Shown here piece by piece: positions 11,793 to 27,160 of a DNA stretch of 39,549 nucleotides. Position 1 is the stretch's first letter. Each line of letters starts with the position of its first letter. The position numbers were made by a program, and so were the translations under genes. The DNA is from an uncultured Clostridia bacterium (GTDB lineage: Bacteria; Bacillota; Clostridia; TANB77; CAG-465): NCBI GenBank assembly GCA_944388545.1, contig CALXJE010000020.1, positions 1 through 39,549 on the forward strand, read 5' to 3'. The notes under the pieces are model-generated. The model was not told the origin of the DNA. It saw only the letters and a list, made by a program, of their open reading frames with translations, and did not search any database.

Positions 11793-13802
11793 TTATTTAT
11801 ACATATTAAGATCTTCTCTTAAATATATAATAGAATATATCCATTTTGTTCTAACTCTCTTTATTTTAACATCCTCATCTATGCCATAATATTTTTTTAG
11901 ATTAGCTAAATGTCCTTCATGCCACGCATTTAAATTATGCAACACTTCTTCAGGAAACAATAAAAGTGTTATCTCTTTACTATTTTCTCTTATTCCTTTA
12001 TTTATTATTTCTTCTCTATCAATTTGCATTAATCTAACATTAGAATAGATAACTAATAACAATGCAATTGTTCCAACAAACGCGAGTTTTACTAATATTC
12101 CAAATATACTTTTTATTTTAGAAGGTGTATTTTTTGTATCAACTTCACCTAATAGTATAAATGAAAATGCATATAACATGTATACAGTAAATAATGCTGT
12201 TCTGTGACCAGAAATTGGTGACAATAATAGTGCTAAATTACTAGATAATCCAACAAATAAATAAAATAATGCTTTATATTTATCTTTTACAAATCTAAAC
12301 GCAATATATATTAACAATAATGTAAATGTAATCCAATAAATTTGAATTAATATACTCTCTGAGTTTCTTATAAAATCAATATATGATAATAAAGCTGTTG
12401 CTTTTGAACTAGTACTAGCTATGCTAGTTAATAAATTTGCAATTATATTAATCACTGGAACAAGCAAATATATACTTGTTAATATTTTTATAACTTTATT
12501 TCTTACATTTTTATTTACTATAATGAAAATACATGCTGTAAGTAATGCCATTAATACATTGTTTTCCATATATGTAAATTTTACAAAATTCTTTAAATTA
12601 TATAGGCACTTTCCAATTAAAGACAATTCTCCAAATTCTGAACTTTCACTTGAAAGTCTAGCTGAAGAACCTGGACTAAGTATCATAACTAAGAATCCTG
12701 CTAGAGATATAATAAAATATATTAATATATTTTTATTAATTTTTTTATTTTTTACCCAAGTATATACGAGTAATAAAGCATTAGCGAAAACTAGTGCAGC
12801 ACCAACACTTTCTGCCATCATTGATGCAAGTAAATTTATAATACAACACAACGTTATCTTTAACTTACTTTGTGAATAATCTTTTTTCCAAATTTTATTC
12901 ATTAAAGCAAAATATACTAAACATAAAAATGTTGGCATTGTATAAGTACAATTTCCAGCTATCCATAGATAACATTGAGTAAAAATAGTACTTTCTAAAA
13001 ATATCACGCTAAGAGCTACTAGAAATGGCATTATTTTTCTACTTGAAACACCAGATATTTTGCATATTATAAAATATGCACCACATACCATTGCAGCATT
13101 CACAATATTCCAAAGCCATTCTGTATTTATAAAGAACATAACTAATGTATTTGCTACTATTCTTCCACCAAGAGTAAAGTATCTTTCAAAAGCTAATTTA
13201 AAGTTTTCTATAATATTATTTGAGCCATTTAATTTTCCGCCCCAATCATCTCCACCTATTGGTGCTAATAAAGAAATTATATAAAAAGTAACTAATAATA
13301 TTAATCCTATCCAAAATGAATTACTGCTTTTTTGAGGTTTAACATTTATTTCTTCCTTTAATTCATTCATAAATTTTTCTGTATTACTTTCATATTTATT
13401 AGGAGTAAAAGTTTTGGCTTTTTCCATAACATCATCTAGACTTTCACCATCTTTTAACTCTAATATATATCCCTGATCACTAAAAATACTTACCAATTCT
13501 TCCTGATGATTGTCTACATGTTCTCCATATTTTTGCATTCTAGCACAAGCTATTATCTTTTTGCCTTTTTTTAATGGTTCAACTATAGATCCTGTCCCAC
13601 CATGAGTAATTATATAATCTGCTCTTTCTACTAATTTTTCCATTTCTTCATAGCTTACAAAATCTAAAATTTTCATTTTTTGGCTATCATATTTAGTATG
13701 TCCTGCTTGAACTATTATCTCATCATTAATATTACTATTTTCAATAGCATCTAATAATCTAGTAAATTCTTGTTTTTGAGTTCCTAATGTAACTAATATC
13801 AT
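11793..13802 (-). CDS. Alg13-like glycosyltransferase domain fused to a DUF6056-like membrane protein
   Basis: A 669-residue fusion. Residues 1-155 match the Alg13/PssE/CpsG type: MILVTLGTQ at the N-terminus and DYIITHGGTGSI, the nucleotide-sugar-binding block of GT-B family 28 C-domains. The remainder (from about 165) has around 12 hydrophobic helices, with APIGGDDWGG just after the first, GGRIVANTLV, and LWIAGNCTY. That resembles DUF6056 membrane proteins, which look like GT-C or polymerase-type enzymes. The Alg13 part needs an Alg14 partner, encoded immediately upstream. The ATG at 13802 overlaps that gene's stop as TAATG; an earlier start at 13820 is rejected because it would cover the GGGGGTGG ribosome site. 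The DUF assignment is from motif memory. Confidence 0.82.
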   Translation of the reverse strand: MILVTLGTQKQEFTRLLDAIENSNINDEIIVQAGHTKYDSQKMKILDFVSYEEMEKLVERADYIITHGGTGSIVEPLKKGKKIIACARMQKYGEHVDNHQEELVSIFSDQGYILELKDGESLDDVMEKAKTFTPNKYESNTEKFMNELKEEINVKPQKSSNSFWIGLILLVTFYIISLLAPIGGDDWGGKLNGSNNIIENFKLAFERYFTLGGRIVANTLVMFFINTEWLWNIVNAAMVCGAYFIICKISGVSSRKIMPFLVALSVIFLESTIFTQCYLWIAGNCTYTMPTFLCLVYFALMNKIWKKDYSQSKLKITLCCIINLLASMMAESVGAALVFANALLLVYTWVKNKKINKNILIYFIISLAGFLVMILSPGSSARLSSESSEFGELSLIGKCLYNLKNFVKFTYMENNVLMALLTACIFIIVNKNVRNKVIKILTSIYLLVPVINIIANLLTSIASTSSKATALLSYIDFIRNSESILIQIYWITFTLLLIYIAFRFVKDKYKALFYLFVGLSSNLALLLSPISGHRTALFTVYMLYAFSFILLGEVDTKNTPSKIKSIFGILVKLAFVGTIALLLVIYSNVRLMQIDREEIINKGIRENSKEITLLLFPEEVLHNLNAWHEGHLANLKKYYGIDEDVKIKRVRTKWIYSIIYLREDLNMYK

Positions 13803-14281
13803 TAATAAATCCACCCCCAAACTTTTGCTTTAGGGTAAAACTTTTTCATACTATCCCATTGTACAACAAAAGTATCAGCAATAGGATATACCATTTTACC
13901 AGATTTTGTAGGGCTTGTCCTTTTAGCAAAGCTCTCTATAAAAATAACTTTACTACCAAATAATTTAGCTATATAACACATAGGTACTGCTGTATGGGTT
14001 CCTGTTGTAACTACAACTTTAGGTCTATACTTAAAAAATAGAAATAATGATTTTAAAATATTCCATCCTTCTTTAAAAGGATATGAAAGCCAATATTGTC
14101 TACTACAATATGTCAAGTATTCCATTTTATACTTACTTTTCATATCTTTTGTAACGTCTGTATACTCAGTAACTAGTATATAATTATAGTCTTTAAATAT
14201 CCCTTTTAGTTGTAGCATCTGTGTAAGATGCCCTCCTACACTAGATATAAACATAACTCTTTTTAATTTTTTATTTTTCAT
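13802..14281 (-). CDS. Alg14-like glycosyltransferase subunit (PssD/CpsF type)
   Basis: A 159-residue membrane-anchoring partner that recruits an Alg13-like catalytic subunit to lipid-linked substrate. The N-terminus has FISSVGGHLTQML, then VVVTTGTHTAVPMCYIAKLFG and FIESFAKRTSPTKSGK, all classic for Alg14/PssD/EpsE. The C-terminus ends in QWDSMKKFYPKAKVWGWIY, as in capsular family members. Together with the next gene it should add the second sugar onto an undecaprenyl-PP-sugar. GGGGAG lies upstream of the ATG. It shares one base with the following gene. Confidence 0.92.
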   Translation of the reverse strand: MKNKKLKRVMFISSVGGHLTQMLQLKGIFKDYNYILVTEYTDVTKDMKSKYKMEYLTYCSRQYWLSYPFKEGWNILKSLFLFFKYRPKVVVTTGTHTAVPMCYIAKLFGSKVIFIESFAKRTSPTKSGKMVYPIADTFVVQWDSMKKFYPKAKVWGWIY

Positions 14282-15193: not shown

Positions 15194-17599
15194 TTATCTC
15201 TCCTTAATAATATCATTTAGTTTATTAGTAATAACATTGTTAAATTTATTATAATCAAATTTCTCTTTAATGTTATATCCTTTATCTAAGAATTCTTTCA
15301 TTCCTAAATATACACCTTCGCTGCTATTTTCACATAATATTCCAAATCCTTTTTCTGTTATATTTTTAGCATCTGCAACATCTGTAGAAATAATTGGTAT
15401 ATTTAGCACTCTTGCTTCATCTAAAACTACGCCATATCCTTCATAAATTGATGTAAATAATAAAGCTGAGCTTTTTTTAAGATAAACATATGGATTCTTT
15501 TTGTTGCCTACCATAAATATAGTATCTTCTAACTTAGATTCTTTTATCATTTTTTCATATGATTTGCTATCTTCACCATTTCCTACAAGTATTACTTGAA
15601 AATTATATTTATCATCTTTTAGTTTTTTACTACTTTCTATTATTCTTGATATTTTTTTACTTTTTTCTTCCTGTCTAGAAACATGTATGAATGTTATCTT
15701 TCCTTCAAAATCAATATTTTCTGTTATTTCTTTATCATCACTAGCTAGCTTTAATATTTTATCTCCATCTATGTAATTATTAATTACTAAAGATGTCCCA
15801 TTATATTGGGGGAATATTTCTTTAAAACTTCTTAATGCCTTATCTGAAACACAGACCACTTTTTTAAATTTTTGAAATTTTACTTGACTATTAAGTTTTT
15901 TCATTTCTTTTTCATTTCTACTTGCTAAATCTGCATGTATAAATATAATATTATTCTTTGATGCATTTCTTGTTAGAGTTGCAAGTACTCCATGATTATG
16001 TCCATAACAAATAGATGCATAAAAAGTATTTTCAAATATAAATTTAGAATTTAATACTATCATTTTAAATATTGTTATAATTTTATTTTTTAATGTCCAA
16101 TCTTTTTTACAAAAAACATAAGTATCTATTTCTTTTGGTATATCATCAATATATTCTTTATCTTTTATATATCCGACATATACCTTAATATCATATTTAC
16201 TTTTTAAATTGCTCATTCTTAATAAATTAATTAATGATTTTTCCATACCACCTATGGATAATCTAGGTATAAATATAGCTACCTTCCTTTTACTATTTTT
16301 TTCTTCTATATAAAAGCTATCTTCTTTTGTATTAAGTTTAATTAATACAACACTTAAGAAAAGAGCAACTGTTGGAGCTAATAATACATGACCTGCTATG
16401 TACGATATTCCAAGGGATAAACAAATACTTATCCCCATAACGAAATTCTTTTCATTACATTCAGTTTTAAAATCTTTAAACATTCTTTCCAAAAAGCTTA
16501 CACATATTAATACAATAGGCATAAAATATATAAAAATTCCAACTATTCCATAAACAAAGAATATATCGTATAAATCTCTTTCTATAGAATTATAGCTACC
16601 ATCTTCTAGCTTTATTCTATTATCATGATTTACTCCAAATATTTTCTCTATAACACTTGCATTTTTATATTTTTCAACTTGCTCTTGAACATCTAGTTCT
16701 CTACCATTATATACAAAAGATTGTAATACCTTTTTATTATCAACCGGTTCTTCACCAACAGTAACTGAGTTTTTAGCTATATCAATTCTTTCTACCATAT
16801 ATTTTAAAGAAGGAGAGTATGGAGCACTTGCAATTAATACAATCAATAAAATAAATACTGTAAACAACATATTCTTAGATAATCTATTTTTTCTAGTAAT
16901 AAACATAAAAAGTTCAAATATAAACAATCCAATTATTGTAATAGCTATTGCTACAAATGATGTTTTTGTTCCTATAGCTAATAAGCCATACGTAACTGTA
17001 CTAAGAGCAAATATCATTGATTTACTTCTATATTTACTAGCGAAATATATGATAATAGGATAAAACATAGCAAGAAGCGCACTTATCTCATTTCCAGAAT
17101 AGTACCACCCTGAATGGCCATATTCAGGAACTGTTGAATATGTTGCATATTGTGTTCCAGTTAATCTAGCAATAATCATTACTGTAGCATAAACAGATGC
17201 ACTATAAACCAATGTTTTTAAATGTATTTTATTACCATTTTCAGTATATTTATATAAAAACAGCATCGCAACTGGGAATGTAATATACTTACATATTTCA
17301 GAAATCTTTACTATTATACTAGATAAAGAAAAACTATCTATAGATATAATAAAATTAATAACTGCAGATATAACAATAAAACCTAGCATTACAAATGTAG
17401 ATTTCCTTTTTTCTTTATTTATAAAAACTAAATAAAATATCGCATATAGTAAAAATAGTGTTTTATATACTATTCCAAGAGTTATCGATGTATTCATATG
17501 AACTATCATATATGTAGTTATAACCTCAACAAGTGGTAACAATATATAGAACAAACTTATAACTTTCTCGTCATACATTTTTTCTAGTTTTTTTAACAT
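15194..17599 (-). CDS. O-antigen polymerase-like membrane domain fused to a family 4 glycosyltransferase
   Basis: An 801-residue fusion. The first 425 or so residues hold about 12 membrane helices with an external loop around 270-340. A short GVNHDNRIKLEDGSYNSIERD stretch before YGIVGIFIY resembles the Wzy/O-antigen ligase active loop. From about 430 a GT-B glycosyltransferase begins (KVAIFIPRLSIGGMEKSLINL). It includes FIHVSRQEEKSKK and the E-x7-E nucleotide-sugar motif in YEGYGVVLDEARVL near 719-732. In most loci these are separate genes. A repeat-unit polymerase on the outside and a transferase on the inside in one chain is unusual. It has its own promoter (17637-17665) and AAAAGGAG before the ATG. 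Confidence 0.85.
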   Translation of the reverse strand: MLKKLEKMYDEKVISLFYILLPLVEVITTYMIVHMNTSITLGIVYKTLFLLYAIFYLVFINKEKRKSTFVMLGFIVISAVINFIISIDSFSLSSIIVKISEICKYITFPVAMLFLYKYTENGNKIHLKTLVYSASVYATVMIIARLTGTQYATYSTVPEYGHSGWYYSGNEISALLAMFYPIIIYFASKYRSKSMIFALSTVTYGLLAIGTKTSFVAIAITIIGLFIFELFMFITRKNRLSKNMLFTVFILLIVLIASAPYSPSLKYMVERIDIAKNSVTVGEEPVDNKKVLQSFVYNGRELDVQEQVEKYKNASVIEKIFGVNHDNRIKLEDGSYNSIERDLYDIFFVYGIVGIFIYFMPIVLICVSFLERMFKDFKTECNEKNFVMGISICLSLGISYIAGHVLLAPTVALFLSVVLIKLNTKEDSFYIEEKNSKRKVAIFIPRLSIGGMEKSLINLLRMSNLKSKYDIKVYVGYIKDKEYIDDIPKEIDTYVFCKKDWTLKNKIITIFKMIVLNSKFIFENTFYASICYGHNHGVLATLTRNASKNNIIFIHADLASRNEKEMKKLNSQVKFQKFKKVVCVSDKALRSFKEIFPQYNGTSLVINNYIDGDKILKLASDDKEITENIDFEGKITFIHVSRQEEKSKKISRIIESSKKLKDDKYNFQVILVGNGEDSKSYEKMIKESKLEDTIFMVGNKKNPYVYLKKSSALLFTSIYEGYGVVLDEARVLNIPIISTDVADAKNITEKGFGILCENSSEGVYLGMKEFLDKGYNIKEKFDYNKFNNVITNKLNDIIKER

Positions 17600-19641: not shown

Positions 19642-21150
19642 TTAAACATTGTTAAGTGGTTTCATTGTAGGGAAAAATAATACATCTCTTATTGAATAAC
19701 TGTTTGTAAATAACATAATTAATCTATCTAATCCTAGTCCTAGTCCTCCAGTTGGTGGAAGTCCTATCTCAAGAGCGTTAATGAAGTCTTCATCCATTCC
19801 CCCTGCTTCTTCATCACCTAAAGCTTTTGCTTCTGCTTGTTTTACAAATCTTTCATATTGATCTATTGGGTCATTAAGCTCAGAATAAGCATTACCATAT
19901 TCTCTTCCACCAATAAATAGTTCAAATCTTTCAACTAAACTTGGATCTGAAGACTTTCTTTTAGTTAAAGGCGATACTTCTACTGGATAATCAATTATAA
20001 AAGTTGGGGCAATTAATGTTTCTTCAACAAACTCTTCAAAAAACTCGTTTATTATATGTCCTCTTGTATTTTTTATAGGATCTATTTCAACTTCTTTTTC
20101 CTCAGCAAGTTTTCTTGCCTCTTCATCAGTCTTTATCTCATTAAAATCAATTCCTGTAACTTCTTTTATTGCATCTATCATAGTCACTCTTCTAAATCCA
20201 GGAGTTAAGTCTATATCTTGTCCTTGATAATTTATTTTTGTTGTTCCTAAAACATTTTGAGCTATAGTAGAAATTATTTCTTCAGAGATATCCATCATAT
20301 CATTATAATCTTCATATGCAGAATAAAGTTCTATATTGGTAAATTCCGGATTATGTTTTATGTCCATTCCTTCATTTCTAAAGTTTCTACCTATTTCATA
20401 AACTTTATCTATACCACCAACAATAATTCTTTTTAAATTAAGCTCTGGAGCTATCCTTAAATACATATCTAAATTAAGAGTATTATGATGTGTAATAAAA
20501 GGTCTTGCAGCATCTCCTGTTGCTACAGTAGTAAGTATAGGAGTTTCTACCTCCATATATCCTTTTTCATCTAATATTCTTCTTAATTCTTTTATAATCT
20601 TACTTCTTAAAATAAAAGTATTTTTAACTTCAGGATTAACAATTAAATCTACATATCTTTGTCTATATCTTAAATCCGGATCTTTTAATCCGTGCCATTT
20701 TTCAGGAAGTGGTCTTAAAGATTTACAAAGAAGTGTTATTTCTTTTGCATGTACAGATATTTCCTCCGTTTTTGTTTTAAACACAAATCCTTTTATACCT
20801 ATAATATCACCTATATCATAAGTTTTAAACTCTTTATATGCTTCTTCACCTAAATCATTAGTACTTATATAACTTTGAATTCTACCTTGTCCATCTTGAA
20901 TATGACAAAAAGATGCTTTACCCATAATTCTTTTTGCCACTATTCTTCCCGCAATTGAAACATCTTTTCCTTCTAATGATTCAAAATTTGATTTAATATC
21001 CTGGCTATTATGTGTTTTATCATATTTAGTAATATCAAATGGATTTTTATTTTTTTGTTGAAGTTCTTTTAGTTTTTGCATTCTCACTTCTACAAGTTTA
21101 TTTATATCTTCTACTGTTAATTCTTCTTTATTAATATTTTGATCATTCAC
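19642..21150 (-). CDS. lysS: Lysyl-tRNA synthetase, class II
   Basis: Charges tRNA-Lys. The 502-residue protein has the N-terminal OB-fold anticodon domain (about 60-170; [18 protein letters not shown]). Then come class II motif 1 ([23 protein letters not shown]), motif 2 ([18 protein letters not shown]) and motif 3 ([15 protein letters not shown]). Length fits bacterial LysS. The start is GTG at 21150 with AGGAAG upstream. It follows greA by 29 bases and shares its promoter, an arrangement common in Firmicutes. Transcription ends at the hairpin near 19325-19386. I see no T-box leader. Confidence 0.97.
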
Positions 21151-21179
21151 TTTATTTCACTTCCTACTTTCAATTTTTA

Positions 21180-21659
21180 CTATACAGTTTTCTTTATATC
21201 GTCAATTCTATATTTTGCTATTCCGTTTGGTACTTCTATTTCTATTTCTTCACCTTTTTTCTTTCCAAATAAAGCCTTACCTACAGGTGATTCTATAGAT
21301 ATTTTATTATTTATAACATCAATTTCTGTAGCTGGTACTATATGATAATCTATATTCTCATCAAACTCATAATCATATAGCGAAACTGTTACGCCTATAC
21401 CAACTGATTTTGTTGAAATCTTATCAACTATTTTAGCTGTTCTTAATGTATTTTCCATTTCAATTATTTTAGCTTCAAGTTGTGCTTGCTCATTCTTGGC
21501 TTCATCATATTCAGAGTTTTCTGATATATCTCCAAATTCTCTAGCTACTTTTATTCTCTCTGCTATCTCCATTTTCTTAGTGCCTTTTAAATATGTTAAT
21601 TCATCTTCTAATTTTTTATATCCTTCTTCAGTAAGTAATATTGCCTCTTTTTCTTCCAT
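21180..21659 (-). CDS. greA: Transcription elongation factor GreA
   Basis: Rescues backtracked RNA polymerase by stimulating transcript cleavage. The 159 residues are standard. The N-terminal coiled-coil has LTEEGYKKLEDEL and the acidic tip block EFGDISENSEYDEAKNEQ. The C-terminal FKBP-like domain includes SPVGKALFGKKKGEEI and the closing VPNGIAKYRI. The start has AGGAGG upstream. It is first in a two-gene unit with lysS, behind a consensus promoter. Confidence 0.97.
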   Translation of the reverse strand: MEEKEAILLTEEGYKKLEDELTYLKGTKKMEIAERIKVAREFGDISENSEYDEAKNEQAQLEAKIIEMENTLRTAKIVDKISTKSVGIGVTVSLYDYEFDENIDYHIVPATEIDVINNKISIESPVGKALFGKKKGEEIEIEVPNGIAKYRIDDIKKTV

Positions 21660-21740
21660 TTTTTCTCATTCCTCCTAGATAAAATCCTATCAATTATTTG
21701 TTTTTTAGTAATAAGTATTACCTAATAATTAACTTTATAT

Positions 21741-21769
21741 ACTATACTCTATACTTTAACATTTGTCAA
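21741..21769 (-). promoter_or_regulatory. Promoter of greA-lysS
   Basis: Minus-strand TTGACA (21764-21769, exact consensus), 17 bases, TATAGT (21741-21746). It lies in the 118-base gap downstream of the 117-residue membrane protein gene. Confidence 0.9.
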
Positions 21770-21777
21770 TATTTATG

Positions 21778-22131
21778 TTACTTTATTATTCTTCTTTTCT
21801 TAATCATTCTTGAATGTCTTTTTATAAATTTGTATATGTATATTAAAATAAGTATTATAATTTGTGAAGAACAAAAATAAATAGCTATATATGTAAAATA
21901 GTCTGATATTTTCCCATACCTTTCCAGGAACTCTTCGTAATTTTCCATCGCTTTATATGATAAAGATAATAAATACCCTAAAGTTACAGCTCCTATTATT
22001 TCTTCAATAAACATTAAAAATGTAGTAAATCCACTTCTGATACTCATTATCTTTTTAATAGTAATTATGCATAATACACACATGAAAATAATAATTCCAA
22101 CTGTAATATATATAGCATTTATATCTATCAT
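21778..22131 (-). CDS. Unrecognised small membrane protein
   Basis: A 117-residue protein I do not recognise. It has a hydrophobic N-terminal helix (about 5-25), a second around 40-60 interrupted by FIEEIIGAVTLGY, and a third near 80-103. The tail is strongly basic (KFIKRHSRMIKKRRIIK) and likely cytoplasmic. It starts 21 bases after the 298-residue gene and probably ends the cdaA-containing unit. No catalytic motif is visible. Confidence 0.7.
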   Translation of the reverse strand: MIDINAIYITVGIIIFMCVLCIITIKKIMSIRSGFTTFLMFIEEIIGAVTLGYLLSLSYKAMENYEEFLERYGKISDYFTYIAIYFCSSQIIILILIYIYKFIKRHSRMIKKRRIIK

Positions 22132-22152
22132 TTGTTAATCACTCTCCTATAA

Positions 22153-23040
22153 TTAATCTATTATAGCATTTGACACGGTAATTTTTCCATATAATTCATA
22201 CAATTCTTTTATCTTACTTATATAATAAATTTGATCTTGCATACCTTTTTCAAGTTTTAAATATTTTTCATTAAATTTATCATTTTCTTTATTTGTAAAA
22301 TCTACAAAACATGTATTTTTAGAAAATCTAAATTTAGAATACTCTATTCTAGACTTATCTATAAATATACATATATTATATCTTTTAAAATCTTTTGTAC
22401 TTCTATTTAATATTTGTATACATGATCCATATTCATCATTTATTTCCTTTATTTTATTTTGAAATTTTTTACCTACTTTATCTAAAGAAAAAATTACTAA
22501 TTCCTTATACTTGTTATTTAAATCTTTAATAATATTTAAATTAATATTATTTACATCATTTGCTAAAATAGCAGGGGTTATATCTTCATTTTTTAAATTA
22601 TTATTTAACTTATACTCTTCGATATATTTATCCAAATTATTTTCAACTGTACTAAAAAATAAATACTCATTAATGCTAAATTGTTGTAAAATTTCTTTAA
22701 TATAATCTTTTATATCTTTCTTTTTCTTTAAAGTATTTGAAAATACGACTGAATATCCTATTAAATTATTATTTTTTATAAGCTTTTCCATGTTTTTTTT
22801 TAACTTATTAATATTGTGCTTATTCTTAAAATTGCTTATCGTAGATATTAATGTAGGTTTATTATGTATTACATTTTCTTTTTTAATACCATTTATATAT
22901 TTTGAAATGTCATTTATTTTACTAATATTTAAACTCATTTCTAATATATAATTCTCATTTCCTACCTTACTAACATCTAATTTAACGTTTTTTCCATTCA
23001 TAACAGTATTTGAAACTTCTTTTATAAAGATTGTATTCAT
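22153..23040 (-). CDS. Unrecognised protein downstream of cdaA
   Basis: About 295 residues, no signal peptide or membrane helix, very rich in Asn, Lys and Ile. I do not recognise a family. The N-terminal third looks beta-rich. The middle (KLKKNMEKLIKNNNLIGYSVVFSN) is helical. The last third alternates strands and helices (ELVIFSLDKVGKKF, YNICIFIDKS, NTCFVDFTN), consistent with an alpha/beta fold. The ATG at 23040 follows GAGGTGAT at normal spacing; a GTG three codons earlier is less likely. It occupies the position next to cdaA where many Firmicutes carry the YbbR-domain regulator cdaR, but I see no YbbR repeats. Confidence 0.75.
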   Translation of the reverse strand: MNTIFIKEVSNTVMNGKNVKLDVSKVGNENYILEMSLNISKINDISKYINGIKKENVIHNKPTLISTISNFKNKHNINKLKKNMEKLIKNNNLIGYSVVFSNTLKKKKDIKDYIKEILQQFSINEYLFFSTVENNLDKYIEEYKLNNNLKNEDITPAILANDVNNINLNIIKDLNNKYKELVIFSLDKVGKKFQNKIKEINDEYGSCIQILNRSTKDFKRYNICIFIDKSRIEYSKFRFSKNTCFVDFTNKENDKFNEKYLKLEKGMQDQIYYISKIKELYELYGKITVSNAIID

Positions 23041-23099
23041 ATATATCACCTCATGAATAATATATATGAATTTAAAATATAAGTATTACAATTTTATGA

Positions 23100-23969
23100 T
23101 TATTGTTGACTACGAATATTTTCTTTCATCTTTGTTGCTACTATTTTATCTTTATTTTTATCCATACCTTTTAATAATATTGATGTTAATTTCTCCCCTG
23201 TTAAATCTCTTTTCATTTTTCCGCTTTCTACAAATGAAATTGTTCCTGTTTCCTCTGAAACAACTATAACTAACGCATCTGACACTTCACTCATTCCAAC
23301 AGCAGCTCTATGTCTTGTTCCAAGATCTTTAGGAACTACATTTTCAGATGCAAGCGGAAGTACACAACTTGCTGCTTTTATTTTATTATCTCCTATAACT
23401 ACAGCTCCATCATGAAGAGGTGTTCGTGGTATAAATATAGTCTGTAATAATTCCGAAGATACTTTAGCAGAAAGATCTATTCCCTCTCTTGCTATATCAG
23501 ATATTTTGGTGCTTTGTTCTATTACAATTAAAGCTCCTATTTTCTTTAAAGACATAATCTCTACTGCTTTAACTATTTCTGATACTATCTGTTTATTTTT
23601 TAATTTATCATCAAAATCAAAAATATCTACTATTTTCTTTCTTCCTAGTTTTTCAAATGCGTTTCTAAGCTCTGGCTGAAATACTACTATAAATAACAAC
23701 ATTCCATAGGTCATTATATTAGTAAGAATAAAATCTAAGATAACAAGATTTAACGCTTTACTTACTATCATTAATATAAATAGTATTAATATACCTTTAA
23801 CTATTTGTTCTGCTCTAGTTTGTTTAATAATTCTAATAACGTAATATACTATAAATGCAACCAATGTTATATCTATCACTAAAGCTGCAACTCTCCATGC
23901 ACTTGTAATTTGTAATACATCTTTTAAAGTATACATAAAGTCAATTAATGCATCCCATATATTTTTCAT
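23100..23969 (-). CDS. cdaA: Diadenylate cyclase CdaA (c-di-AMP synthase)
   Basis: Makes cyclic di-AMP from two ATP at the membrane, controlling potassium, osmolyte and cell-wall homeostasis. The 289-residue chain has three N-terminal helices (about 25-95), then the DAC domain with the DGA motif (TPLHDGAVVIG) and the RHR motif (DLGTRHRAAVGMSE). VVSEETGTISFVESGKM follows. Length and layout are those of CdaA, not DisA or CdaS. GAGAGGTGAT precedes the ATG. The usual partners cdaR and glmM are not adjacent. Here it lies after a 32-residue membrane peptide gene and before an unrecognised 295-residue protein. Confidence 0.96.
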   Translation of the reverse strand: MKNIWDALIDFMYTLKDVLQITSAWRVAALVIDITLVAFIVYYVIRIIKQTRAEQIVKGILILFILMIVSKALNLVILDFILTNIMTYGMLLFIVVFQPELRNAFEKLGRKKIVDIFDFDDKLKNKQIVSEIVKAVEIMSLKKIGALIVIEQSTKISDIAREGIDLSAKVSSELLQTIFIPRTPLHDGAVVIGDNKIKAASCVLPLASENVVPKDLGTRHRAAVGMSEVSDALVIVVSEETGTISFVESGKMKRDLTGEKLTSILLKGMDKNKDKIVATKMKENIRSQQ

Positions 23970-23997
23970 TATACAATCACCTCTCCTACAATACTAA

Positions 23998-24096
23998 TTA
24001 CAATACGTTATAAATTAATGCTAAAAATGTTGTAAATATCATTATTCCAATTAAAAGCCAAACTACTATTTTAAGCGCTTTACTATCTCTATTCAT
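23998..24096 (-). CDS. 32-residue single-helix membrane peptide
   Basis: A short gene with an excellent ribosome site, GGAGG eight bases before the ATG at 24096. The peptide has a charged start (MNRDSKALK) and one membrane helix (IVVWLLIGIMIFTTFLALIY), then NVL and stop. It fits between its neighbours with 26- and 28-base gaps, as a member of the same operon. It resembles the short DUF4044-like single-helix peptides of Firmicutes in size and layout, though that link is loose. Position just ahead of cdaA suggests an accessory subunit or regulator, which is inference. Confidence 0.7.
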   Translation of the reverse strand: MNRDSKALKIVVWLLIGIMIFTTFLALIYNVL

Positions 24097-24122
24097 TATT
24101 TATTACCTCCTAAAAATTACAA

Positions 24123-24920
24123 TCATTTTGTTATAGTTACATCTACAACTCCGTACCTTTTATCTACTACTTCATCCTCATTAAGAAGTATATGGAACTC
24201 ATTATTTTTAATGTAGAATTGCTCCAATCCTGTTATTGTATAATTATATTTACTTTCTGCTATCATATTATCTTCAATAACTGTATTCTTTACTTGATTA
24301 CTAATAAGGTCTAAATAATTTGCTCCTAAGATTTCAATAGCAGCATCTTCTTGACTAAGTAAAGTTCCTTTTGCTAAATCTATATTATACGCGTCTACTC
24401 TATCTGTAGTTGTTGACCCTGAAGCATTATCCACTATTCTTTCATGTATAGTTATAGAAACGATTCTATTTTCATTAATCTTATTTTCATACACTTTATA
24501 TGTAACTCTATATGTAAATCTATTTTCTGTAGATTCCATTTGATCAGATAAGCTTTTTGATCTTTCATCATAATGATTTTGTATAGTAGAATTAATTTCT
24601 TCTAAAGCTACATCATTTACTTTTATTTGCGGTATTGTCATATTAATACTAAAATTACCGTTTCTGCTATTGCTAGCTTTATCTTCTACTTTATATGTTA
24701 TTTCGTCAACATTTATAGTATTTTCTGCCATAGTTTCTTTAGCTTCTTCATAAACTTCTACATCCTTTAAAGGATCTTGTCCAAGAACAGTAGGCTCTGG
24801 CTCATTAATAATTGAATATGCAACTAAACCTGTTCCCAGTATTATAAATAGGAAAAAGGCATACACTCCCATATTACCTGTCTTTTTTTTCCTTATCTTG
24901 TTATAACTCATTGTTTCCAT
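24123..24920 (-). CDS. Membrane-anchored RsiV/PdaC-like (DUF4163/DUF3298-type) extracytoplasmic protein
   Basis: A 265-residue protein with a basic cytoplasmic stretch (KIRKKK), one membrane helix (about 19-38) and an external domain. The outer part has FSINMTIPQIKV, then a long strand pattern (FTYRVTYKVYENKINENRIVSITIHERIV). It ends in a block YNIDLAKGTLLSQEDA, which recalls the DUF3298 half of RsiV and PdaC proteins. RsiV is a lysozyme-sensing anti-sigma factor, but no sigma-factor gene is next to this one and the cytoplasmic part is too short to hold a sigma factor. An extracytoplasmic cell-wall-related role is therefore more likely. It is co-transcribed, with 14- and 26-base gaps. Confidence 0.7.
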   Translation of the reverse strand: METMSYNKIRKKKTGNMGVYAFFLFIILGTGLVAYSIINEPEPTVLGQDPLKDVEVYEEAKETMAENTINVDEITYKVEDKASNSRNGNFSINMTIPQIKVNDVALEEINSTIQNHYDERSKSLSDQMESTENRFTYRVTYKVYENKINENRIVSITIHERIVDNASGSTTTDRVDAYNIDLAKGTLLSQEDAAIEILGANYLDLISNQVKNTVIEDNMIAESKYNYTITGLEQFYIKNNEFHILLNEDEVVDKRYGVVDVTITK

Positions 24921-24934
24921 ACAAACTACATCTC

Positions 24935-25534
24935 CTAATTCTTATCATTTTTTCTATTAATTAAATCTTTTACATTTTCTGTAACATGATTTACTTTACT
25001 TTTAATTTCATCAATGTCTACTTTTTCTTTTATATTATCTATAAAAGATGGTATATTAACATTGTTTGTCTTATGATTTTCACTATCTTCATTAGTATCG
25101 TTTTTATTTTCCTCTGCAAAATATCCTCTTTCCAATGTTTCCTTATACTCTTTATCCTTTTTTAGTTTAGTAAATATATTAATAATAAAGTAAATAATAT
25201 TTATTATTGAAACTATAACAAACATTGCTCTTGGTATAAACATATATACTGTATCACAATCGTCTGCCCTAAGTGTACCATGAGGTCCAAGTCTTGAAAC
25301 TAAAACTGAAGATATAATTCCAAATACAACATATATACCTATAGTTATTAGATTTATTAATGTTATATAATCTTTTGACTTAATTTTCCATAACTTCCTA
25401 AACATGTATACATTTGAAAACATTATTATAATAATTAGTATTACTAAAAAATTTGTAAATGGCAAAAGAAAATATTCTTCTAATTTTTCAGGAATAGTAT
25501 GAACTGTGCTAGCTGCTAAATATTCAGGATTCAT
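24935..25534 (-). CDS. Unrecognised four-helix membrane protein
   Basis: A 199-residue protein I cannot place in a family. Four hydrophobic helices (about 27-46, 57-82, 101-122 region) precede a hydrophilic, Lys/Glu/Asn-rich C-terminal tail of about 70 residues. A loop RLGPHGTLRADDCD between helices is the only distinctive motif. The tail (KEKVDIDEIKSKVNHVTENVKDLINRK) is predicted helical and could form a coiled coil in the cytoplasm. AGGAGG precedes the ATG, and the gene starts 11 bases after pta. Confidence 0.7.
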   Translation of the reverse strand: MNPEYLAASTVHTIPEKLEEYFLLPFTNFLVILIIIIMFSNVYMFRKLWKIKSKDYITLINLITIGIYVVFGIISSVLVSRLGPHGTLRADDCDTVYMFIPRAMFVIVSIINIIYFIINIFTKLKKDKEYKETLERGYFAEENKNDTNEDSENHKTNNVNIPSFIDNIKEKVDIDEIKSKVNHVTENVKDLINRKNDKN

Positions 25535-25545
25535 ATTGAGTCCTC

Positions 25546-26547
25546 CTACGAATCATTTGCTGAAGCTTGAAGAGCAGTTATTGCAATTACTCCAACTATG
25601 TCTTCTGAAATACATCCTCTAGATAAGTCATTTATCGGCTTTGCTAATCCTTGTGTTATAGGTCCATATGCATTTGCTTTTCCAAATCTTTGAACTAGTT
25701 TATAGCCAATATTTCCTGAATTTAAATCAGGGAATATAAATACATTTGCCTGACCTGCTACAGTACTTTTTGGAGCTTTTAATTTTGCAACTTTTTTATC
25801 CACCGCAGCATCAACTTGAAGTTCTCCATCTATCATAATATCTGGTCTTCTTTGCCTAACTATATTAAGTGAGTTTCTTACGCTATCTATACTATCTGAT
25901 TTTGCACTTCCCATTGTTGAATAAGAAAGCATTGCTATCTTAGCTTCTTCATCTAAAAGAAGTTTACAACTTTCACTTGATTGTATCGCTATTTCAGCTC
26001 TTTGTTCATCAGTTGGAAATTCAACAAGTCCACTATCTGCAAAAATATATGCATTTTTATAATCTGAATTTAAAAGTTCCATTATAAAGAAAGCTGATAC
26101 ACACTTAGCATCTTTTTTAGTTTTAACTATTTGAAGAGCAGGTCTTAAAGTATCAGCTGTAGAATGACTAGCTCCACAAACTAGTCCGTCTGCTTTTCCT
26201 TCTTTAACCATCATAACTCCAAAATATATATAGTCTTTTATTAACTCTCTTGCTTTTTCTTCTGTCATTCCCTTTTCTTTTCTTAATTCATAAAGTCTAT
26301 TTTCAAATGACTTAGTATATTCTGAATTTTCAGGATTTACTATTTCTATGCCATTTAAATCTATATTTTCTTTAATGCAGATATCATTTATCTTGTCCTT
26401 ATCTCCTATAATAATAATATTAGCTATTTTTTCAGAAGTTGCCATACTTGCTGCTCTAAGCACTCTTATATCTTCACTTTCTGGAAGTACAATTCTCTTT
26501 ATGTTTTTTTTTGCTCTTTCTTTAATCTTAGAAATTATAGTTTCCAA
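25546..26547 (-). CDS. pta: Phosphate acetyltransferase
   Basis: Interconverts acetyl-CoA and acetyl phosphate, the first step of acetate formation with ATP gain via acetate kinase. The 333-residue protein is the short Pta form with a single PTA_PTB domain. Visible blocks are RIVLPESEDIRVLRAA at the start, GLVCGASHSTADTLRPALQI, SAFFIMEL, IFADSGLVEFPTDEQ, MLSYSTMGSAKSD, and KLKAPKSTVAGQANVFIFPDLNSGN at the C-terminus. The start codon is TTG at 26547 with AGGAGG upstream. ackA is not beside it. It lies between plsY and a membrane protein gene in a nine-gene unit. Confidence 0.96.
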   Translation of the reverse strand: METIISKIKERAKKNIKRIVLPESEDIRVLRAASMATSEKIANIIIIGDKDKINDICIKENIDLNGIEIVNPENSEYTKSFENRLYELRKEKGMTEEKARELIKDYIYFGVMMVKEGKADGLVCGASHSTADTLRPALQIVKTKKDAKCVSAFFIMELLNSDYKNAYIFADSGLVEFPTDEQRAEIAIQSSESCKLLLDEEAKIAMLSYSTMGSAKSDSIDSVRNSLNIVRQRRPDIMIDGELQVDAAVDKKVAKLKAPKSTVAGQANVFIFPDLNSGNIGYKLVQRFGKANAYGPITQGLAKPINDLSRGCISEDIVGVIAITALQASANDS

Positions 26548-26566
26548 TTATATTTCCTCCTATTAA

Positions 26567-27160
26567 TTAAAACAACCTATTTTCTTCTCTATTTATAATT
26601 CTTTTTATGTTAGATCTATGTTTGTATAAAATTACTGCTGATGCAATAATTACCGCTATAGTATATTCCGTTTCCATTATAACAATCATAATATCAAAAA
26701 GTACAATTGCAGATACACTACCAAGTGACACTGTTCTACTTATAACTATAATTATTAAAGCAACTATTAAGCAAACTGCAACTGGCTTTGGAGCTATAAA
26801 TGAACATGAAATAAGCATTGCTACTACACCTTTGCCACCTTTAAACCCGTAATATACAGGGAAACAATGTCCTAATATAGCTCCAACTAAATAAAAAGAT
26901 TTAGCAGAAGTTAACGCTTCTTTTCCAAATATCTTAACAAGAAGTAACATAACCCAATATGCTACCACAACTTTAAAAGCATCTAGTAGAAATACTAAAA
27001 CTCCCCAGCCTTTTCCCATAGTTCTAATAGCATTTGTAGTACCAGCATTTCCACTTCCAACTTTTCTAATGTCTGTTCCAATAATTCTTTTACTAAGTAT
27101 TATTGCTGGATTTATTGAACATATTAAATACGAAAATATGAATATAAATACATTTAACAT
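26567..27160 (-). CDS. plsY: Acyl-phosphate:glycerol-3-phosphate acyltransferase PlsY
   Basis: Transfers the acyl group from acyl-phosphate to glycerol-3-phosphate in the membrane, the first acylation of phospholipid synthesis. The 197-residue protein has five predicted helices and the three family motifs: SGNAGTTNAIRTMG near 37-50, GHCFPVYYGFKGGKGVV near 96-112, and a later basic-loop region KHRSNIKRI. GGAGG lies before the ATG. It starts 17 bases after der, a pairing common in clostridia. Confidence 0.96.
   Translation of the reverse strand: MLNVFIFIFSYLICSINPAIILSKRIIGTDIRKVGSGNAGTTNAIRTMGKGWGVLVFLLDAFKVVVAYWVMLLLVKIFGKEALTSAKSFYLVGAILGHCFPVYYGFKGGKGVVAMLISCSFIAPKPVAVCLIVALIIIVISRTVSLGSVSAIVLFDIMIVIMETEYTIAVIIASAVILYKHRSNIKRIINREENRLF

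Follow-up and report, generated by a model that had tools for sequence, protein, structure and literature searches.

A conserved single-helix miniprotein precedes cdaA in a Clostridia order whose cdaA locus lacks cdaR

The cdaA locus and its neighbours

The window, the 39,549-nucleotide stretch of DNA analysed here, is contig 20 of a 1.15 Mb genome of 49 contigs that is rated 100% complete. Along its minus strand, der, plsY, pta, ORF199 and ORF265 are followed by a 32-residue peptide (the miniprotein), cdaA, ORF295, a 117-residue membrane protein, greA and lysS (Table 1). The cdaA gene certainly encodes a CdaA diadenylate cyclase, which synthesises the signal molecule c-di-AMP, as its product scores above the cut-offs of TIGR00159 (251.9 against 188.8 bits), PF02457 (149.9 against 27) and PF19293 (46.3 against 23.8); the closest CdaA segment among database records, from a Clostridia MAG, is 85% identical.

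Table 1 Features surrounding cdaA in the window.
Feature	Coordinates	Strand	Description
Miniprotein, 32 residues	23998-24096	minus	Charged N-terminal end, one predicted membrane helix, ideal Shine-Dalgarno; family sited upstream of cdaA in loci of the order
cdaA, membrane diadenylate cyclase, 289 aa	23100-23969	minus	CdaA_N membrane domain and DAC domain; TIGR00159 (E 5.6e-75), PF02457, PF19293
ORF295, soluble, 295 residues	22153-23040	minus	C-terminal domain predicted to be Rossmann-like; belongs to no named family; immediately 3' of cdaA in family f1
Membrane protein, 117 residues	21778-22131	minus	115-residue counterpart in the sole other genome of the genus
ORF265, 265 residues	24123-24920	minus	One N-terminal membrane helix (from sequence); possible outer PdaC/DUF3298-like domain, below cut-offs
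greA	21180-21659	minus	Next downstream gene in the f1 loci listed

The first-pass annotation had described cdaA as standing without cdaR or glmM, between a one-helix 32-residue peptide with an ideal ribosome site and an unrecognised soluble protein of 295 residues, and each part of this description was borne out. An AGGAGG motif lies 9 nt 5' of the miniprotein ATG, and 28 nt separate the end of the peptide from cdaA. ORF295 begins with an ATG at 23040, preceded by GAGGTGAT, which yields the 295-residue product; an alternative GTG start three codons upstream would give 298 residues. ORF295 occupies the usual place of cdaR, the locus is negative with a CdaR profile, and glmM is not nearby.

Further out, greA directly follows ORF295 in the other f1 loci listed (family and genus labels such as f1, f3, f30, g1, g5 and g23 are anonymous), and a gene of 115-117 residues, not seen in those loci, intervenes in the window's genus; in the genus-mate, the 115-residue counterpart lies beside greA (L206:313-660). 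On the other side, ORF265 is the upstream neighbour of the miniprotein in four loci (genera g1 and g5), and its layout, a single membrane helix plus a possible outer domain, is closer to that of CdaR than the layout of ORF295 is. An Rfam scan of the window found no RNA, and a terminator scan of positions 21000-26600 found no terminator. A promoter-like match (11/12) lies ahead of greA at 21769-21741; the promoter scan of the region returned 42 sites against 43.7 in shuffles, and thus no excess. Elsewhere on the minus strand, a polysaccharide cluster contains an 801-residue protein in which an O-antigen-ligase-like membrane domain is joined to a group 1 glycosyltransferase (15194-17599), and residues 8-156 of a 675-residue protein (11793-13820) match the PssE/Cps14G glycosyltransferase model above its cut-off.

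The cdaA locus of the order lacks CdaR

Passages of two papers describe the cdaA-cdaR-glmM arrangement as conserved in Firmicutes (PMC8573169, PMC10243994). The window shares with that operon a CdaA with membrane and DAC domains and an adjoining gene for a single-helix membrane protein, but here no CdaR is found at the locus, glmM does not adjoin cdaA in the loci read, and the partner gene lies upstream rather than downstream of cdaA and lacks an outside domain. The position directly 3' of cdaA is taken not by cdaR but by ORF295 in the window and in f1, by truA in many f3 loci (one of them Pfam-checked), and by varied genes elsewhere.

The model for YbbR (PF07949), the domain by which CdaR is recognised, gave no match in the window's own genome, in the 36 genomes of its family or in any of 287 genomes of the order, 262 of which have a CdaA above the cut-off. 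Across a class sample, 162 of 196 genomes were YbbR-positive, a count that is a lower bound; the sample includes eight genomes of this order, all negative. The model has false negatives, and it missed CdaR in 4/4 genomes checked outside the order. These four (L193, L195, L196 and L197) had been candidates for CdaR-lacking controls and were rejected, as in all of them the gene immediately 3' of cdaA encodes a CdaR-like protein, which matches a full-length CdaR profile in 4/4 (E of 7e-36 or lower) and passes the Pfam YbbR cut-off in 2/4. Such genomes, which carry CdaR and are nevertheless YbbR-negative genome-wide, call for caution with presence and absence counts from PF07949. In genomes of f2 and g23, within the order, CdaA itself appears to have been lost, with weak matches of 9e-6 to 8e-9 (six listed) that are DisA-like at most.

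Because the YbbR search was imperfect, we built the full-length CdaR profile from 25 outgroup proteins. This profile recovered 8/8 control loci, all at E 7e-36 or better, and found nothing at E 1 or better among 1,410 ORFs from 117 sources within the order, a few of which are cut by contig ends. The cdaA locus in this order therefore has no CdaR. That the protein has been lost genome-wide is likely rather than proven, given the four genomes in which the YbbR model missed it. A cdaR elsewhere, together with cdaA neighbours that are not conserved, would have spoken against the first-pass annotation; within the sensitivity of the YbbR model no such gene appeared in the 287 genomes, and the neighbours proved to be conserved, as described below.

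Canonical GlmM exceeded the cut-off in 213 of the 287 order genomes, and no glmM lies beside cdaA in the window or in the order loci read. In the window's genus canonical GlmM was not found; the window genome and the one other genome of the genus give only weak matches. The sole match found to the GlmM model in the window genome is a phosphomutase (L047:2240-3601, contig 3; 186 of 447.6 bits), which scores best as the phosphoglucomutase/phosphomannomutase PgmG (420 of 600 bits) and as Arch_GlmM (351 of 439), both below the cut-offs.

ORF295, a neighbour of cdaA in one family

An ORF295-type gene lies directly downstream of cdaA in 33/33 f1 loci with a continuing contig, 29 of them aligned and the other four placed by profile. 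The ORF295 profile detects relatives in 35 of the 36 f1 genomes, and in the exception, G031, neither an ORF295 relative nor cdaA was found. In other families of the order, the cdaA loci read have no such gene. Distant relatives in four f3 genomes sit away from cdaA, between truB and a penicillin-binding-protein gene (Pfam checks support truB at one of these four loci and the penicillin-binding protein at two). Searching the whole order returned 40 of 287 genomes, including one false match, G245, in unrelated genes, and in the class sample a mixed profile detected 7/8 order genomes and, marginally, 1 of the other 188. The relatives are very divergent, with 18-25% identity to the window protein.

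Sequence searches of ORF295 against Pfam (including 29 relatives), NCBIfam and the PDB gave nothing credible, and its sister-family relatives matched nothing over the cut-off in Pfam or NCBIfam. Two structural models, built from 4-row alignments, have mean pLDDT values of 58 and 55, with core blocks at about 70-89, and both predict that the second half of the protein adopts a Rossmann-like fold; the N-terminal half is of low confidence and not reliably modelled. The best structural matches, at Z of about 10 over ~120-130 residues with an rmsd of about 3-5, are transcarbamylases, dipicolinate synthase A and shikimate dehydrogenase, and Foldseek returned generic Rossmann matches for the two models (0 and 6, respectively, at E 0.001 or better). 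In NAD(P)-binding Rossmann enzymes, a GxGxxG glycine-rich loop usually follows the first strand. The second half of ORF295 would share the predicted fold of dehydrogenase and transcarbamylase domains (shikimate dehydrogenase, dipicolinate synthase A, ATCase), but it differs from them in having no sequence match and no conserved glycine after the first strand in the alignments, and in its low-confidence N-terminal half.

These data bear on whether ORF295 could be the real regulator of CdaA in f1. In that case a soluble sensor of Rossmann-like fold would bind a metabolite as well as the cyclase domain, in the manner of GlmM elsewhere. Its invariable position after cdaA in f1, its presence in every f1 genome but the one in which cdaA was not found either, the Rossmann-like domain in both models and the missing canonical GlmM in the window's genus would fit such a role. 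Its absence from the cdaA loci of the other families read, the location of the f3 relatives between truB and the penicillin-binding-protein gene, and the strong divergence of its sequence argue against it. We consider it unlikely on this evidence that ORF295 is the real regulator, while noting that such a role would be compatible with one for the miniprotein as a CdaA subunit. ORF295 is best described as an extra gene next to cdaA in a single family, whose product may be a soluble regulator. Of the first-pass proposal that either neighbour could replace CdaR, the part concerning ORF295 has support in this one family only, the f3 relatives lying beside truB; the part concerning the peptide gained support from the linkage that follows.

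The miniprotein family and its proposed role

We read the cdaA loci of 30 f1 genomes and of 80 other genomes of the order (f3, f4 and f5), the latter picked for genus spread among the best CdaA matches listed. A crude rule, demanding 26-95 residues, an end near the cdaA start, one hydrophobic stretch and a positive N-terminal side, found a peptide upstream of cdaA in 30/30 f1 loci and in 78/80 of the others. In the two loci that the rule missed, L160 and L168, a helix of this type forms the end of a longer protein, of 169 and 115 residues respectively; L160 matches the family profile at 2e-9, and L168, which matches weakly (best domain 0.0013, whole sequence 0.074), was accepted by eye. By eye, the miniprotein is also present in the other five f1 genomes that have cdaA, so that the linkage holds in 115/115 order loci examined across the four families. 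As a control, a rule-positive peptide precedes cdaA in 107/109 order loci, against 16/218 for other ORFs of at least 200 residues on both strands of the same loci, and two of these 16 have low scores with the family profile (6.9 and 5.8 bits).

The peptides align as one family with the consensus KIFVKIMAGILALLMVLSVAATLIYAL (in the row for L179, an overlapping frame was used in place of a better peptide). The gap between the miniprotein and cdaA has a median of 20 nt and is at most 60 nt in 99 of 108 cases. Beyond the pair, the next genes out form 30 clusters on the upstream side (109 loci) and 21 on the downstream side (106 loci), some of which may be non-coding ORFs; the clusters are uneven, the two largest holding 52/109 loci upstream and 75/106 downstream, with 17 and 15 singletons. 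As the outer neighbours vary around the peptide-cdaA pair, operon inertia explains the linkage poorly.

The miniprotein frame is under purifying selection, with a pN/pS of 0.42 for 17 close pairs, whereas the other two frames give 0.70 and 2.05; a second set of 32 pairs likewise gave 0.42, against 0.21 for cdaA. This selection on the amino-acid sequence speaks against a regulatory upstream reading frame whose translation would set the expression of cdaA and whose product would not be a partner of CdaA. The short length of the frame, its place directly 5' of cdaA, the strong ribosome site and the median gap of 20 nt are what such a frame would predict, but the helix persists across four families despite lengths that range from 30 to 169 residues, and related peptides in family f30 lie up to about 600 nt upstream. 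We therefore regard a purely regulatory frame as quite improbable.

Another view would make the miniprotein a general small membrane protein with no tie to CdaA, placed beside it by chance or by promoter sharing. The obvious candidate is Prli42 (NF033880), the stressosome-associated membrane miniprotein of Listeria, which likewise has about 31 residues and one helix, and to which the window peptide has a weak likeness; according to a passage of PMC9840623, the described partner of Prli42 is RsbR1, not CdaA. We rejected this identity, as the window peptide scores 20.8 bits against a cut-off of 27.5, 0/143 order genomes pass the cut-off and most of the matches listed lie in long open frames. Although the sub-threshold score would suit a general membrane protein, the linkage to cdaA persists through changes of the outer neighbours, making this view an unlikely one.

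We also looked for the peptide outside the order by running a family profile of 109 peptides (108 from counted loci, plus L036) on 4,824 frames from 39 non-order loci. Its best three matches, at E 1e-4, 9e-3 and 0.05, are the f30 loci L111, L107 and L115, in which the peptide lies upstream of cdaA-cdaR at a distance of about 80 to 600 nt. The crude rule was positive before cdaA in 5/30 outgroup loci, which are the best CdaA scorers and hence not an even sample. Among these positives the profile backs L107; the peptides of L111 and L115 were missed by the rule and are supported by the profile, so that all profile-supported cases are from f30. A similar peptide in L117 (f56) was recognised by eye only, and the other outgroup rule positives look spurious. 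In the CdaR-bearing group of L193 and L195-L197, no such peptide was found in the three loci testable by the rule. The coexistence of peptide and CdaR in f30 means that the peptide is not a marker of CdaR loss, and since the related peptides precede cdaA-cdaR there, the pairing either arose before CdaR went missing or has no connection with its absence. The miniprotein would thus be an older companion of CdaA, and what looks like a replacement of CdaR may really be the retention of an older partner.

The same loci bear on whether the miniprotein could be a remnant of CdaR, cut down to its membrane helix and moved ahead of cdaA. Both consensus helices contain a similar motif, K-I-x-A/S-x-I/L-L/I-A, and 73 of 2000 column shuffles reach the observed score in a comparison with 25 CdaR N-terminal ends, a weak likeness that is suggestive at most. 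However, f30 genomes carry the peptide together with CdaR, and no CdaR frame matches the miniprotein profile up to an E of 5, leaving descent from CdaR a very remote prospect.

With its linkage, its coding selection, its common sequence family and a locus without CdaR established, we consider it somewhat probable that the miniprotein serves CdaA as a dedicated membrane subunit, with binding to the cyclase inferred from these features. Passages of PMC10243994 and PMC8573169 state that CdaR contacts CdaA via membrane helices and that GlmM is an inhibitor that blocks active CdaA oligomers; how CdaR acts on CdaA is called unclear in PMC8573169. By analogy, the single helix of the miniprotein, with its charged end presumably in the cytoplasm, would pack on the N-terminal membrane helices of CdaA, where the membrane helix of CdaR binds in other Firmicutes, and might thereby steady or tune the assembly of active cyclase. 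The miniprotein would then be an old CdaA companion, kept in a Clostridia order whose cdaA locus no longer holds cdaR, and ORF295 would be an add-on in one family, perhaps a soluble regulator. Several observations count against this reading: conservation of the miniprotein helix is not one-sided (permutation p 0.63), its likeness to the CdaR helix is weak, it co-occurs with CdaR in f30, the outer neighbours cluster unevenly, and the YbbR search misses some CdaR proteins. Open-access literature searches found nothing on CdaA with a small membrane protein, on CdaR absence in Clostridia, on the YbbR gene neighbourhood or on a diadenylate cyclase microprotein.

More tentatively, and in our view with less than even chances, this order may have dropped the CdaR branch altogether, so that its CdaA runs with a one-helix subunit that makes a membrane contact only and has no outside sensor, which would constitute a new class of cyclase partner. 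If this is true, the essential role of CdaR would lie in its helix and not in its outer domains. A bare membrane helix encoded beside cdaA in all 115 loci, at a locus without cdaR, would offer a minimal system for the role of membrane contact alone. The cdaA-cdaR-glmM arrangement is absent from a sizeable clade, and control of c-di-AMP there is thus not simply to be copied from Bacillus or Listeria.
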